Assembly (NCBI GenBank): GCA_022823505.1
Contig: JAJEIA010000091.1
Location: forward strand, 1-41,678
DNA length: 41,678 nt
Origin: Dehalococcoidia bacterium
Lineage (GTDB): Bacteria > Chloroflexota > Dehalococcoidia > Lucifugimonadales > UBA3495
Reading direction: 5' to 3'
Shown here piece after piece: positions 1-10,888 of the stretch. The position numbers and the translations under genes were made by a program. A model generated the notes under the pieces. That model searched no databases, was not told the origin of the DNA, and saw nothing but the letters and a program-made list of their open reading frames with translations. Within the stretch, counting starts at the first letter, position 1, and each line of letters begins with the position of its first letter.

Positions 1-288
1 GCCGACACGCGGAGTGGTCTGGTCGTAGATGTCGTAACCGAACTTGGTGGCGATGATCATCTCGTGCCGTCGGTGGCTCATGAACTTGGCGAGGACCTCT
101 TCGCCGTAGCCGTCGCCATAGGTGTCGGCGGTGTCGAAGAAGTTGATACCCAGTTCCAGCGCTTCCTCCAGCAACTGGCGTCGCGTCTCCTCGGGAATGC
201 GGCCCCACCAGTTGGTGGCCACGGTCCAGACGCCGAAGCCCACTTCAGAGATCGTCAGGTCGGTGCGGGGGAGTTGGCGGTATTTCAT
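1..288 (-). CDS. Aldo/keto reductase, N-terminal part (cut by window edge)
   Basis: The first 96 codons read as the start of an aldo/keto reductase, an NAD(P)H-dependent cytoplasmic oxidoreductase with a TIM barrel. Visible family marks are the opening strand with EVGFGVW (about residues 14-20), the EALELGINFFDTADTYG segment with the catalytic Asp and Tyr, and the ATKFGYD strand near the cut end. The ATG at 288 is supported by AAGGGTGA about 10 bases upstream, which lies inside the end of the upstream gene. Only 7 bases separate it from that gene's stop, so it can be read as the last member of the upstream cassette. The substrate cannot be told from this fragment. Confidence 0.88.
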   Translation of the reverse strand, partial: MKYRQLPRTDLTISEVGFGVWTVATNWWGRIPEETRRQLLEEALELGINFFDTADTYGDGYGEEVLAKFMSHRRHEMIIATKFGYDIYDQTTPRVG

Positions 289-295
289 GGTCTCA

Positions 296-904
296 TCACC
301 CTTCAGTGGCTTCGCTAAGCCAGCGGCTCATACCTTCGATGAATTCATCCCGTATTGTACTAGAGGAACCGCAGAACTCGGCGATCAATTCCTCCTTAAA
401 TGCCTGCGGATCGTCCTGCGTCGGGACGACAAATGAGTCGATCGGGTCGCAGGCTATTGTCATGTCGTGCCCTTCGACGAAAATCCGATTCACCGGCATC
501 CCAACTGCACCAGCCGTGGACGGCCAGGTGCAGTCTACGTTCATCCATCCTTGGCTAGACCTCAGGCGGATGTAGGTATGAACGTCCGGTACAGGTTCCT
601 CATTCACTAAGGCTCTGAGTTGTGCTGGGAAATGCGAGGTGTTGCGCCGAGTGAACTTATGCGTGACCATGACAATCCGCGAGTCCATGCCGAGTTCACG
701 AAAGATCGCGTCCAACAGATAGTGCTTACCCGAGCAGGTGCCGCGCCATTCCGCAACGATGGCTTCCGGGGACCGGGAACTGGCGCGCCGGTAAGGCATA
801 TCGCGGACCAGAGCAAAGGCCGATGGGGCAGTCAGCGGGTCGCCGGTTGCCCCGAGGCCACGGGCGCGGGCTTCCTGCTCCAAGAGTGTCCTAAAAGTGG
901 TCAT
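296..904 (-). CDS. Transglutaminase-like (Cys/His/Asp) domain protein
   Basis: This 202-residue protein has a transglutaminase-like core: RGTCSGKH with the presumed nucleophile Cys57 at a helix start, then the helix LLDAIFRELGMDSRIV, a DVHTY strand with His109, and GWMNVDCTWP with Asp124. The order and spacing fit the Cys-His-Asp triad of the papain/transglutaminase fold. No signal peptide or membrane segment is seen, so it should be cytoplasmic. Its ATG overlaps the stop of the restriction endonuclease gene as ATGA, so the two are probably translationally coupled. Base composition is lower in GC than the core genes, as in the two upstream genes. The fold is a good call; activity, substrate and any role in restriction are unknown. 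Confidence 0.7.
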   Translation of the reverse strand: MTTFRTLLEQEARARGLGATGDPLTAPSAFALVRDMPYRRASSRSPEAIVAEWRGTCSGKHYLLDAIFRELGMDSRIVMVTHKFTRRNTSHFPAQLRALVNEEPVPDVHTYIRLRSSQGWMNVDCTWPSTAGAVGMPVNRIFVEGHDMTIACDPIDSFVVPTQDDPQAFKEELIAEFCGSSSTIRDEFIEGMSRWLSEATEG

Positions 905-1494
905 GTTTCTGGCCGAATTGCCCGCGGATTACGATGACTAGCGATCACGGTGATCAAATCATCCACTGATTCTTGCCGGTCCCGCAGCTGGAAGGCCGAC
1001 TCTCTGCCCGGGTGCATTGTGTCCCACCGCGAGCGCTGTTGATCCTGACGACCCTGACCGGGAGGATTGTTCCCAAACCCAGTCAAAACCACATTCCATA
1101 TCGGCCGGTACTGCGAGATCAGCACTTGCTCAGTGAGGCCGATCCATACTGGATCGAGCACCAGCCAACGACAACGGAAGTCCGCAAGGTCCAGGTTGGT
1201 AGCCGATCGAATCGACTCGGCATGGTGTGACAGCCGGCGATACAACGCAGCCGTGCCCGAAGTTGCTGAAGTTCGTCCTTGTCTCCTCCCGGGTGGGTCT
1301 GCCTTTCCAACGTAGATTGGCGCGTCCTCATCGAGGCCAGTGTACGCGGGGAACGCCCCAATGTAGTGCAGCGTATATACTCCCACCCCAACAAAACTCT
1401 CGTGCGGTGGCAATACGTCTGCTGGATATTCCATCAAGGTACGTGCCGCATTGCGACCCAACTCGTCCACGCTCAAGGGGTCATAGCTTCGCAC
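901..1494 (-). CDS. Eco29kI-family restriction endonuclease (GIY-YIG nuclease)
   Basis: A 197-residue match to the Eco29kI family, type II enzymes that in characterised members cut CCGCGG with a GIY-YIG nuclease domain. The order is GVGVYTLHYIG, PIYVGKA, YRRLSHHAESI, LDLADFRCRWLV, LTEQVLI, PIWNVVLTGFGNNPPG and WDTMHPGR. All expected catalytic residues are present: Tyr40, Tyr61, Lys64, Arg87, His91, Glu122 and Asn134; the Arg-His and Glu-Asn spacings (4 and 12) equal those in Eco29kI. The start is a GTG, 3 bases after the methyltransferase stop. The stop overlaps the next gene's ATG. Cut specificity is inferred from the family only. A CCGCGG site lies inside this gene at 922-927, so the host would need protection. 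Confidence 0.88.
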   Translation of the reverse strand: MRSYDPLSVDELGRNAARTLMEYPADVLPPHESFVGVGVYTLHYIGAFPAYTGLDEDAPIYVGKADPPGRRQGRTSATSGTAALYRRLSHHAESIRSATNLDLADFRCRWLVLDPVWIGLTEQVLISQYRPIWNVVLTGFGNNPPGQGRQDQQRSRWDTMHPGRESAFQLRDRQESVDDLITVIASHRNPRAIRPET

Positions 1495-1497
1495 AGA

Positions 1498-2172
1498 TCA
1501 CCGCTCACATCTGGAACTGTTTCTGCATATTATCCAAAAGCAATGCCGTTTTCGGGCATGGTGAGCTGTGGACCACTTCGTTGACGTCATCGGACCCGAA
1601 CGGATTTTGATGATCAAGTCGCAAACTGTGAAACCGGCTTCGTCGGCCATTCGCATAAAATCGCAGTGGCTCCACTTTGAACGGTGGCTATTGACCATGT
1701 CCGTGATTTTGGCAAGCAGCAAGCCATCGGGTTTCAACACTCGCTTCGCCTGCTCCAGAAACGGGGGGTATAGGTAGCTAAGGCTCCAGTCCTGTTCCTT
1801 ACCGCACGCGACGGTCGCCCCGAAATCCTCGTCGAACTTCTTACTGCTCTTGTCCCGTCCCTGCGGGCCCACGTGCGGCGGATCATATACAACCGTTCCG
1901 AATGCGCCATCCGGCACTCCCGCCATCACGCGGTTATCGCCGACGATCATAGGGTTGAATTTTGGATTAATGTCCATCGAAACGACGTTCCGCGGAGAAC
2001 CCTTCCAAAAGCGTCCCTTGTTATACGTGGCGTCCAATATGGGCTCCGGAGCTATTGATGCATAGAACTGCAACATATTCTCTATCAAGTCACCATCATT
2101 GCCTTCCCACACGCTGCTGATGGGACGGTACCCTTCTGCCACTATCAGTTCTTTCTGTACCAAAACGGCCAA
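1498..2172 (-). CDS. DNA methyltransferase-like protein (DPPH motif), partner of the nuclease
   Basis: A 224-residue class I SAM-dependent methyltransferase. Motif I is ILDATYNKG (45-53), an acidic motif II residue lies in VSMDINP (Asp67), and motif IV is YDPPH (96-100), of the type used by exocyclic-amino (m4C or m6A) DNA methyltransferases. The end HARKRHCFWIICRN resembles the last strand of such enzymes. It precedes the Eco29kI-type nuclease by 3 bases, which suggests it protects the same site. In classical Eco29kI systems the partner is a 5-methylcytosine enzyme, so this is a different pairing. The longest reading starts at a TTG; an in-frame TGA lies at 2191-2193, and no ATG lies before the core domain, so the N-terminus is uncertain. 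GC is lower than in the flanks. Confidence 0.75.
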   Translation of the reverse strand: MAVLVQKELIVAEGYRPISSVWEGNDGDLIENMLQFYASIAPEPILDATYNKGRFWKGSPRNVVSMDINPKFNPMIVGDNRVMAGVPDGAFGTVVYDPPHVGPQGRDKSSKKFDEDFGATVACGKEQDWSLSYLYPPFLEQAKRVLKPDGLLLAKITDMVNSHRSKWSHCDFMRMADEAGFTVCDLIIKIRSGPMTSTKWSTAHHARKRHCFWIICRNSSRCER

Positions 2173-2311: not shown

Positions 2312-2902
2312 TTACGCCGGCACCAACCCCAGGCTCCCGCGCACCGCCTCGACCATCTCGTAGAACCGCGCGTCGTCCAGCACCGGCATGGCGTCGCCGA
2401 GGCGCACGGTGGGAATGATGTCGACCCACGACTTGCAGCCGCCGTACTCCGGGATGTAGGAAACGGTGGTCGGCGATTCCATCGCGTACACGCGCAGCAG
2501 CATGATGGTCAGCGGTACCATGGGCTTCCAGTGCAGGCGCGACTGGGCGTAGGTGTCCGTCCAGATGTGGTGCGGCGCCAGGTCTTCCACCTTGCCCTGC
2601 TGGTCAATTTCGATCAGCTCATGGACCCGTGCCCAATGAGTGAAGGTGACGGCGTCCTTGTCGTCGGGATCGTCGGCGAGCAGTTGACGCAGCGCGGGTT
2701 GGTGGCTGTCCTTGAGCAGGTCTTCTTTCTGGTGCAGGTAGGTGGGGTAGAGCAAGAACTCGGGATGCACCACGCGAAAGTCCTTGCTCTCCTCGTGGAT
2801 GCCGCCCTTGCGCAGCATCATGATCTGATCGCCGTCGGCCAAAGCCTTGACGGTAATCGCCCACTCTTTCAGGGCCAGTTGGCAGGTCGCGGGGGTGGTC
2901 AT
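2312..2902 (-). CDS. DUF1802 family protein
   Basis: A 196-residue cytoplasmic protein recognised by the DUF1802 signature: LALKEWAITVKALADGDQ, then LRKGGIHEE, then the FLLYPTYLHQ block, followed by a DIIPTVRLG and VLDDARF tail. The family is widespread in bacteria, and its function is not known. I chose the ATG at 2902 because a GGAGG lies 8 bases upstream and the DUF1802 fold starts right after it; a longer reading to 2998 would add 32 residues of low quality. It lies 65 bases downstream of the Tag-like gene on the same strand and probably belongs to the tatD-tag-DUF1802 transcription unit. Confidence 0.85.
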   Translation of the reverse strand: MTTPATCQLALKEWAITVKALADGDQIMMLRKGGIHEESKDFRVVHPEFLLYPTYLHQKEDLLKDSHQPALRQLLADDPDDKDAVTFTHWARVHELIEIDQQGKVEDLAPHHIWTDTYAQSRLHWKPMVPLTIMLLRVYAMESPTTVSYIPEYGGCKSWVDIIPTVRLGDAMPVLDDARFYEMVEAVRGSLGLVPA

Positions 2903-2967
2903 GGCCTCAACCTCCGGGGAAATGGCATGGATGGACAGAATGATCTGGATTTCGATTGGACGGTTGC

Positions 2968-3441
2968 CTAGTGGCCGCGGCTGCAGAATTCGTCCCAACT
3001 GGGCACGTCCTCGCCGGTGACGTAAAGCCAGTAGTAGGTGCCGATGTCGCCCATGTACTTGAACTGCTTGCGCACGTCCTTGATGGTCGACTCGAGATCG
3101 CCGTGGGAGCGCAGGTAGTTGCGGATATCTCCGCCGTATTCTTCCTCGAGGTCGATCAGCCGCTGCGCATTGTGCACGGTGGCCACAATCTTGCGGCGGT
3201 TGCGGATGATCGCGGGGTCGGCGGCGAGAGTATCAATGGACGACTCGTCCATCGCCGCCACTTTCACCACGTCGAAACCCCAGAAGCCGGCCTGGAACCC
3301 CGGCCACTTGGTGTTCACCACCTTCCATGACATACCACTCTGGAAAACGGCTTTGGTCATGACCTCCAGGTAGTCGTTGAGACCGGTCGGGACGATCTGG
3401 TCCGGCGCTTCCGGATGCTGTCGCTCCTGTTGGGTGGCCAT
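2968..3441 (-). CDS. DNA-3-methyladenine glycosylase I (Tag)-like protein
   Basis: A 157-residue protein related to Tag, the base-excision-repair enzyme that removes 3-methyladenine. The core aligns well with E. coli Tag: FQSGMSWKVVNTKWPGF against FQAGLSW..., DVVKVAAMDE, and DPAIIRNRRKIVATVHNAQ. Two things differ: the position of the lesion-recognition glutamate (Glu38 in E. coli) reads Ala in TKAVFQSG, and the N-terminal Cys and His zinc ligands are absent. Length is about 30 residues below E. coli Tag. It may be a variant glycosylase or a Tag-fold protein with another role. The ATG at 3441 follows a GAGGAG and is preferred to the ORF extension to 3618, which overlaps tatD. Confidence 0.72.
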   Translation of the reverse strand: MATQQERQHPEAPDQIVPTGLNDYLEVMTKAVFQSGMSWKVVNTKWPGFQAGFWGFDVVKVAAMDESSIDTLAADPAIIRNRRKIVATVHNAQRLIDLEEEYGGDIRNYLRSHGDLESTIKDVRKQFKYMGDIGTYYWLYVTGEDVPSWDEFCSRGH

Positions 3442-9204: not shown

Positions 9205-10439
9205 CCGCCGCCGCGCTGACCCACCACGACGTCGCCCTGATCCGCAAGGACTTTCCGATACTTGACCAACAGGTCAACGGCAAGCCTTTGGTGTACCTGG
9301 ACAACGCGGCCACCACGCAAAAACCCCGGGCAGTAATCGACGCAATCAGCAACTACTACCTGCACAACAATTCCAACGTGCACCGCGGCGTGCACACTCT
9401 GAGCCAACGAGCCACCGACGACTATGAAGCCGGCCGGGAAGCCATCCGCCGCTTCATCAACGCGCCGGACGCTGACGAGATCATCTATGTGCGCGGCGCC
9501 ACCGAGGGTCTGAACCTGGTCGCCAGCAGCTTCGGGCGCAAATTCTTCAAAGCCGGCGACGAGGTCATCATCACGGGCATGGAGCACCACTCCAACATTG
9601 TGCCGTGGCAGATCCTGGGGAAAGAAATCGGCATCCGCCTGCGGGTCATACCCTTCACCGACCAGGGCGAATTGTTGATGGACGAGTACGAGAGCATGCT
9701 GAATGAACGCACTCGTCTCGTGTCAGTGGTCCATCAATCCAACGCTCTGGGAACCATCAATCCGGTTTCATCGATCATCGAACTGGCCCACGCCCGGGGC
9801 ATTCCGGTCATGCTGGACGCGGCCCAGTCGATCCCGCACATGCCCGTCGACGTGCAGGCCCTTGGCGCCGATTTTCTGACGTTCTCGGGCCACAAGATGT
9901 ACGGTCCCACCGGCATCGGCGTCCTTTGGGGCCGCGCCGACCTGCTCAACGAGATGCCCCCGTACCAGTCGGGCGGAGAGATGATCCGCTCGGTGACCTT
10001 TGAGGAAACCATCTACAATGTGATCCCTCACAAGTTCGAGGCTGGCACTCCGGACATCGCCGGAGCCATCGGGCTCGGCGCTGCCGTAGAGTACCTCGAA
10101 ACTATCGGGATGGACCGCATCGCCGCGTACGAGCAGGCGCTGATGCGTTACGGAGCGGAGCGTCTCTCCGAAATCGAGGGCGTAAGACTCATTGGTACCG
10201 CCGAAAATCGCGGCGGGGTCCTCTCCTTCTACATGGAATCGGCCCATGCCCACGACATCGGCACCATCCTGGACGCAGAAGGCATCGCAGTACGCACCGG
10301 TCATCACTGCGCGCAGCCCGTGATGGCCCGGTACGAGATACCGGCCACGGTGCGCGCCTCGCTGTCCTTTTACAACACCACCGAGGAAATTGACGCGCTG
10401 ATCAAAGGCATTGATCGGGTCATCGAGGTTTTCGGCTGA
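9201..10439 (+). CDS. sufS: Cysteine desulfurase SufS
   Basis: A 412-residue PLP enzyme that turns cysteine into alanine and a persulfide for Fe-S assembly. The PLP lysine is Lys232 in FSGHKMYGPTG, the cofactor contacts are His130 (MEHHSN) and Asp206 (LDAAQS), and the persulfide cysteine is Cys370 in RTGHHCAQP. His350/351 (SAHAHD) lies where the SufU-partnered Bacillus enzyme has the zinc-exchanging His. The GTG start overlaps the sufD stop as GTGA with GGGAGG 7 bases upstream. SufU follows as TGATG overlap, so SufS and SufU are likely made in equal amounts. Confidence 0.97.
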   Translation: MTAAALTHHDVALIRKDFPILDQQVNGKPLVYLDNAATTQKPRAVIDAISNYYLHNNSNVHRGVHTLSQRATDDYEAGREAIRRFINAPDADEIIYVRGATEGLNLVASSFGRKFFKAGDEVIITGMEHHSNIVPWQILGKEIGIRLRVIPFTDQGELLMDEYESMLNERTRLVSVVHQSNALGTINPVSSIIELAHARGIPVMLDAAQSIPHMPVDVQALGADFLTFSGHKMYGPTGIGVLWGRADLLNEMPPYQSGGEMIRSVTFEETIYNVIPHKFEAGTPDIAGAIGLGAAVEYLETIGMDRIAAYEQALMRYGAERLSEIEGVRLIGTAENRGGVLSFYMESAHAHDIGTILDAEGIAVRTGHHCAQPVMARYEIPATVRASLSFYNTTEEIDALIKGIDRVIEVFG

Positions 10440-10888
10440 TGGCATCCGACCTTAGCGATCTCTACCAGGAAATCCTTCTGGAACACAACCGGCGTCCCCG
10501 GAATTTCCGTGCCCTAGAGGATGCCACCCACCACGCGGACGGCTTCAATCCGCTATGCGGCGACCAGATATCGCTGCAACTCCGCCTGGATGAGGACACC
10601 GTCGGCGACGTGGGCTTCCAGGGGCATGGCTGCGCCATCAGCCGGGCTTCGGCATCGTTGCTGACGCAGTCGGTCAAGGGCACGTCGACGGAAAATGCCA
10701 TGGCTATGTTCAACGAGTTCCACCGGATGCTCACCGAGCCGGACGCGGACCTGAACTACGATCTGCTCGGCGACCTGGAAATGCTCGCAGGTGTGATCGC
10801 GTACCCGACGCGGATCAAGTGCGCCATCCTGGCCTGGCATACCCTGAAAGCGGCTATGGAAGGCGAGGGCGTCGCCACTACCGAATAG
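10439..10888 (+). CDS. sufU: SufU sulfur-transfer protein, copy 1
   Basis: A 149-residue SufU-type protein, the zinc-dependent sulfur acceptor for SufS. The zinc ligands are complete: Cys40 and Asp42 in NPLCGDQ, Cys65 in GHGCAISRAS and Cys128 in RIKCAIL, at almost the same positions as in Bacillus subtilis SufU (41, 43, 66, 128). Its ATG overlaps the sufS stop (TGATG). Taken with the Bacillus-type SufS, it explains the absence of a sufE gene here. Confidence 0.95.
   Translation: MASDLSDLYQEILLEHNRRPRNFRALEDATHHADGFNPLCGDQISLQLRLDEDTVGDVGFQGHGCAISRASASLLTQSVKGTSTENAMAMFNEFHRMLTEPDADLNYDLLGDLEMLAGVIAYPTRIKCAILAWHTLKAAMEGEGVATTE

Follow-up and report, generated by a model that had tools for sequence, protein, structure and literature searches.

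An Eco29kI-type restriction nuclease beside a compact DPPH-motif methyltransferase in a Dehalococcoidia bacterium

A two-gene cassette in a variable interval

The stretch of DNA analysed here (the window, 41,678 nucleotides of contig JAJEIA010000091.1) comes from a Dehalococcoidia bacterium and carries, near its left end, a pair of genes for a putative methyltransferase (M) and a putative restriction nuclease (R), together with a third open reading frame (T). M comes first and R follows head to tail on the minus strand. The features, from left to right, are as follows.

1..300: left border of the variable interval, defined by DNA matches at 80-92% in genomes of the same genus
296..904, minus strand: T, a transglutaminase-like protein of 202 aa, whose reading frame shares 4 bases with R
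901..1494, minus strand: R, a 197-aa Eco29kI-family GIY-YIG restriction endonuclease (predicted), GTG start
1495..1497: gap of 3 bases between the stop of M and the start of R
1498..2172, minus strand: M, a 224-aa DNA amino-methyltransferase (predicted) with a DPPH motif IV, TTG start
2312..2998, minus strand: a DUF1802 protein, the right border of the variable interval

Positions 1..300 look like the end of what we take to be an aldo/keto reductase gene. The TTG start of M recurs in three related loci (L030-L032). A first-pass annotation had described a nuclease-methyltransferase pair with 3 bases between the genes, spanning 296-2172; both minus-strand reading frames and the gap are there as described, but the span also encloses the third frame (904-296), which went unmentioned.

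The same annotation held the cassette to be lower in GC than its flanks and probably acquired, and the data bear out both statements. The GC content of 296-2172 is 0.560, lower than in any of 399 sliding windows of equal size, moved in steps of 100 and including those that overlap the cassette (minimum 0.561, mean 0.626). Third-position GC is likewise lower, at 0.60-0.66 in M, R and T against 0.76-0.84 in five neighbouring genes. The DUF1802 gene was found in 12 of 13 genomes of the genus, and the variable interval from this gene to the left border was examined in 11 of the 13 in addition to the window. M and R lie in this interval in the window and in three relatives (L030 in G1522, L031 in G1532 and L032 in G1534); the other eight lack the pair. 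These eight carry T (L216 and L217), an N4/N6 methyltransferase together with an EcoO109I-type nuclease (L220), an EcoO109I-type nuclease (L218), an Eco47II-type pair (L223), an AIPR protein (L221, with a similar long but unscanned reading frame in L216 and L222) or just 0.88 kb of DNA (L219). Because different restriction systems occupy the same place in related genomes, we regard the interval as a genus-level restriction hotspot, and this position, together with the low GC and third-position GC, makes acquisition of the cassette probable and well supported.

T matches Transglut_core at 2e-5, and 35 of 245 genomes of the class, counting that of the window, contain a match to it. We considered it as a third component of the cassette and rejected it: none of 14 T loci of the class, taken with flanks of about 1.5 kb, matched M or R; T stands beside the left border without the pair in G1530 and G1525; and of the loci with the pair, the window and L032 have T, whereas L030 and L031 do not. 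T is a neighbour and not part of the system and, given its third-position GC of 0.66, may be an earlier arrival.

Family membership of the nuclease and the methyltransferase

R matched the Pfam family RE_Eco29kI with 189.6 bits (4.6e-56; curated cut-off 30.8), R.Eco29kI in the PDB at 2.2e-34 and two PADLOC models of Type II nucleases. The active site of Eco29kI is described as Y49, Y76, R104, H108, E142 and N154 (PMC1952068), and in an alignment of 64 rows R has YYRHEN at these six positions, in line with the earlier statement that every catalytic residue is kept. With conservation set at 90% of the rows or more, 26 columns qualify, and R, itself one of the 64 rows, retains all of them. Identity is 38% to Eco29kI and 33% to DraR1. 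Judged by these comparisons, R is an Eco29kI-type GIY-YIG restriction endonuclease with a complete active site, and homology to tested CCGCGG cutters predicts that it would cleave CCGC/GG.

M carries DPPH at residues 97-100. In an alignment of 35 M sequences, with a conserved core of about 210 aa, P98, P99 and H100 are invariant and D97 nearly so; this alignment left out three sequences with stop codons in M (L042, L048 and L052), two partial ones (L065 and L066) and two with the same M as L067 (L068 and L069). The match of M to Pfam N6_N4_Mtase was weak (7.6e-4, under the cut-off), and that to the PHROG DNA methyltransferase phrog_24333 stood at 2.1e-24. An m5C profile gave no match to the window's M at E 1e-4, whereas the M profile did, which places M outside the m5C class. 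The first-pass assignment of M as an amino-methyltransferase, not an m5C enzyme, is thus sustained. PDB sequence searches with M and with its alignment returned no meaningful match.

A structure search, which had been suggested as a check, reached the fold and stopped there. The AlphaFold model of M (mean pLDDT 73.8, pTM 0.76) retrieved general class I methyltransferases, with an rRNA methyltransferase listed first and TaqI and one putative DNA methylase among the 50 matches listed. The predicted model only shows a class I methyltransferase fold and nothing narrower.

Sequence searches were more specific. With tblastn in phages and plasmids we found only distant relatives of M, in seven phage and three plasmid records (23.8-26.4% identity), among them the Shigella boydii plasmid pSB13. 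This plasmid encodes a methyltransferase, a convergent nuclease and a helix-turn-helix gene, and from its host, size and layout we take it to be the Sbo13I plasmid of PMC2890505. Profile comparison of the 35 M sequences with a set made up of M.Sbo13I and four sequences resembling it (M.NruI not included) aligned 190 columns (98.2%, E 6e-14), so that homology to the M.NruI/M.Sbo13I gamma subgroup extends over the whole domain. The two sides share a gamma-like motif order and a C-terminal HARKxH block. However, the NruI and Sbo13I methyltransferases have DPPY as motif IV, whereas PPH occurs in 35 of 35 M rows, and we therefore file M as a sister branch and not as a member of the subgroup. The NruI and Sbo13I systems (TCGCGA) differ further in that their nucleases are predicted to be PD-(D/E)XK enzymes, and the window's M is about 24% identical to M.Sbo13I. 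M is thus a remote, compact sister of the gamma subgroup. A second methyltransferase in the window's genome (L002, contig C5) is of the NruI type, with DPPY and 50% identity to the pSB13 enzyme; it adjoins a 184-aa reading frame, perhaps its nuclease, which has no Pfam match but contains a D...EVK stretch.

Linkage and exchange of partners

To define the distribution of M, we scanned genome contigs of 84,980 species with short peptides of the window's M. This yielded 37 loci in eight phyla, as judged by the record titles (Chloroflexota, Pseudomonadota, Planctomycetota, Verrucomicrobiota, Cyanobacteriota, Acidobacteriota, Binatota and Rhodothermota) with M 72-92% identical to that of the window, a similarity that partly reflects selection by the window's own peptides, as the divergence of the nucleases does not. 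An Eco29kI-family nuclease, whole or broken, adjoins M in 34 of the 37, head to tail in 22 and convergent in 12. The first-pass annotation had named homologues of M lying mostly away from nucleases as the finding that would speak against it; the linkage found is the opposite and indicates a genuine Type II restriction-modification pair. Among the 23 co-directional relatives, 15 were examined for spacing and 13 of these have the 3-base gap again; in the other two the start of R was taken from the border of the match and the gap length is uncertain. A search of 294 genomes of the class with the M alignment gave four matches: the window's genome, G388, a remote match in G595 (55 bits) and a 26-column fragment in G424. 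Relatives of M in this sample were thus close or remote, with no intermediates.

We then compared the histories of the two proteins. The nuclease tree held 63 sequences, and its bootstrap had not settled; short or split nucleases (L095, L096 and L098) were dropped, and L041, L042, L048, L061, L097, L099, L101, L184-L186 and weak matches were never included. Twenty co-directional nucleases linked to DPPH enzymes form one group (support 100/99), and the 12 convergent ones require at least three changes on supported branches. Seven of the convergent nucleases (L040, L043, L044, L049, L054, L059 and L064) make up a very divergent group that keeps the six active-site residues. Those of L057 and L060, 46-48% identical to Eco29kI, group with Eco29kI, a gonococcal homologue and a DraR1-linked nuclease (97/90), and this supported five-member group contains all three classes of methyltransferase partner. 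The nuclease of L046 joins the DraR1-linked ones (99/97), and L045 and L051 are unplaced. A single origin of all DPPH-linked nucleases was rejected (AU p 3e-16), and again, in a test set chosen after the tree had been seen, without the seven long-branch ones of the divergent group (AU p 1e-5).

The methyltransferases tell a different story. M is 70-97% identical overall, whereas the nucleases fall to 27%; between co-directional and convergent loci, M is 70-84% identical (mean 77) and R 27-47% (mean 36). A quick tree of M, with few supported branches, mixes the two arrangements (5 and 8 changes). Because M is conserved, R divergent and a single origin rejected, the two have no common history throughout, and partners have been exchanged. 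Beside the nucleases of L057 and L060, close relatives of a tested CCGCGG cutter, the M family thus takes the place of an m5C enzyme.

The first-pass annotation had proposed a survey of Eco29kI neighbours and had named an m5C enzyme as the known partner. Our census, a PF09517 search in four groups of 400, 294, 289 and 292 genomes (Chloroflexota, Planctomycetota, Alphaproteobacteria and Cyanobacteriota, going by the record titles of their centre loci), matched 24, 7, 6 and 3 genomes, respectively; four centre genomes, chosen for carrying M, were excluded, leaving 36. Five of the nuclease matches lie under the Pfam cut-off (G129, G246, G782, G1006 and G1167), and our own nuclease profile found no match in two of the 36 loci (L100 and L178). 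The partner was a DraR1-like methyltransferase in 16 genomes (in three of these present only as pieces of 37-44 bits), an m5C enzyme in 15 and a DPPH enzyme in one (G388), and none was found in four. The DPPH partner is thus the rarest of the three methyltransferase classes in this census, and m5C is not the sole partner of Eco29kI-type nucleases. On plasmids, 47 records had a nuclease match, and all eight examined have an m5C neighbour. DraR1-like enzymes adjoin the nuclease in L082, L087, L090, L091, L094, L098, L173-L176 and other loci. In two cases one reading frame combines matches to a methyltransferase and to an Eco29kI-type nuclease, the methyltransferase part being DraR1-like in L094 (5133-6686) and m5C in L099 (5150-6574).

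These observations suggest that a single family of restriction nucleases works with methyltransferases of three unrelated classes, and that systems of m4C type with Eco29kI-type nucleases are commoner than the printed literature has it. A broader reading, to which we would give slightly less than an even chance, is that a compact, near-frozen m4C methyltransferase has served as an exchangeable antidote: in at least eight phyla, and in either gene orientation, it would have been teamed with Eco29kI-family nucleases of several separate origins, replacing enzymes of the m5C or the alpha-class m4C kind. Three unrelated methyltransferase classes with two chemistries would then protect one site against one nuclease family, and exchange of partners would be common. 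How restriction systems exchange antidotes becomes testable in this way, because both cytosine chemistries would have to protect against related nucleases.

Predicted site and chemistry, and competing readings

Two systems with Eco29kI-type nucleases frame the prediction. Eco29kI and DraR1 cut CCGC/GG (for DraR1, as reported in PMC10855626). The Eco29kI system of the E. coli plasmid pECO29 resembles the window in nuclease family, complete active site and probably the site CCGCGG, but has a 382-aa methyltransferase of m5C type, which modifies the second C of CCGCGG, and the order R then M. DraR1 of Deinococcus radiodurans pairs its nuclease with m4C, placed by M.DraR1 on the second C of CCGCGG (PMC6712171), so that m5C had not been the only partner already on record (PMC6712171, PMC10855626). 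In contrast to M, M.DraR1 is an alpha-class enzyme, encoded in D. radiodurans some 10 kb away from the nuclease. For the relatives of M on the other side, PMC2890505 reports an m4C signal in dot blots for M.Sbo13I and, for M.NruI, an m6A signal described as probable m6A; with these two pointing in different directions, kinship alone leaves the chemistry of M undecided.

We consider it likely that the cassette is a Type II system in which CCGCGG is protected by m4C. The sequences themselves show linkage, intact active sites, family membership, partner exchange and position in a variable locus, whereas the site (from the homology of R to tested CCGCGG cutters), the chemistry, joint transcription and activity are inferred. 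M and R would probably be expressed from one message, with M encoded first. M would protect the host by methylating one cytosine of CCGCGG, most probably the second, at its exocyclic amino group, and R, which like Eco29kI and DraR1 probably acts on DNA as a homodimer, would cut the unmodified site. If R keeps CCGCGG, an amino-methyltransferase acting on this adenine-free site can methylate cytosine alone, and the mark would be m4C. In M there would then be a candidate m4C enzyme of very small size for this site. Assignments of chemistry at CCGCGG call for caution, as PacBio gave a 4mC call for the gonococcal CCGCGG system NgoAIII, which is listed as m5C (PMC6789123). Counting against the m4C/CCGCGG reading are the 33-38% identity of R to the tested cutters, the probable m6A of M.NruI, the single DPPH partner among 36 census genomes, a model of M that shows no more than the class I fold and a lack of support from site depletion. 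We dropped site avoidance as evidence for CCGCGG because depletion is equal with and without the system: observed/expected was 0.74 in the host (G000, 280 kb) and 0.76 in G388 (150 kb), which has the system, and 0.72 in G218 (200 kb), a genome of G388's genus without a match to M or R.

The strongest alternative, which we nevertheless regard as unlikely, is a working pair with another site, for example the adenine-containing TCGCGA, and m6A as the mark, the specificity of R having drifted. The identity of R to the tested enzymes would leave room for such drift, and the characterised kin of M recognise TCGCGA, one of them probably by m6A (PMC2890505). Against it, the six active-site residues and all of the highly conserved columns are kept in R, and the same M family serves several nuclease lineages, including one near Eco29kI. 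Decay of the cassette to an inactive state is less probable again: at least seven of the 34 linked loci (L041, L042, L048, L050, L052, L053 and L061) carry a split or shortened M or R, but both reading frames of the window are full length with complete active-site motifs.

We think it a little less probable still that M modifies RNA or is an orphan DNA methyltransferase, with R served by a methyltransferase elsewhere. The rRNA methyltransferase at the head of the structure matches would fit, as would the three loci (L047, L055 and L063) with no nuclease match beside M or elsewhere in the available genome sequence. Seven contigs of a viral database also encode M, with a nuclease match in three (L227-L229); none was found in L230 (M at 9977-10645) or in L224-L226, which share an identical M, but these last three contigs end 391-663 bases past M. 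Against an orphan or RNA-modifying role stand the linkage in nearly all genome loci, the recurring 3-base gap in the co-directional set and the matches of M to DNA methyltransferases of restriction-modification systems. It is very improbable that the cassette is simply DraR1 from Deinococcus, carried by a different host: the nuclease family is the same, and mark and site probably so, but profile comparison of M with M.DraR1 gave a probability of 6.8% over 51 columns, with no kinship detected beyond the fold, and the enzymes differ in length (224 and 434 aa) and motif IV (DPPH and SPPY).

As a system the cassette is of a familiar kind, and what is unusual is the methyltransferase that accompanies the nuclease. 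In PMC10855626, a 2024 survey of CCGCGG systems in REBASE counts 310 of m5C type and three m4C systems of the DraR1 type, and calls the latter kind a rarity. While m4C beside an Eco29kI-type nuclease is thus already known from DraR1, the M family, which is unrelated, was not found in print in that role: the openly licensed papers searched describe neither an M-type methyltransferase paired with an Eco29kI-type nuclease nor a DPPH-motif DNA methyltransferase, and REBASE, which lay outside the search, may hold predicted members. CCGCGG is likewise absent from the main text of a metaepigenome paper with Chloroflexi genomes. Among the viral contigs, those with M and no nuclease match (L230 and L224-L226) perhaps reflect self-protection by phages. 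In another (L227, 8275-9511), M is convergent with the nuclease match and the pair lies directly beside a portal protein gene, which points to a phage or prophage that carries a restriction system.
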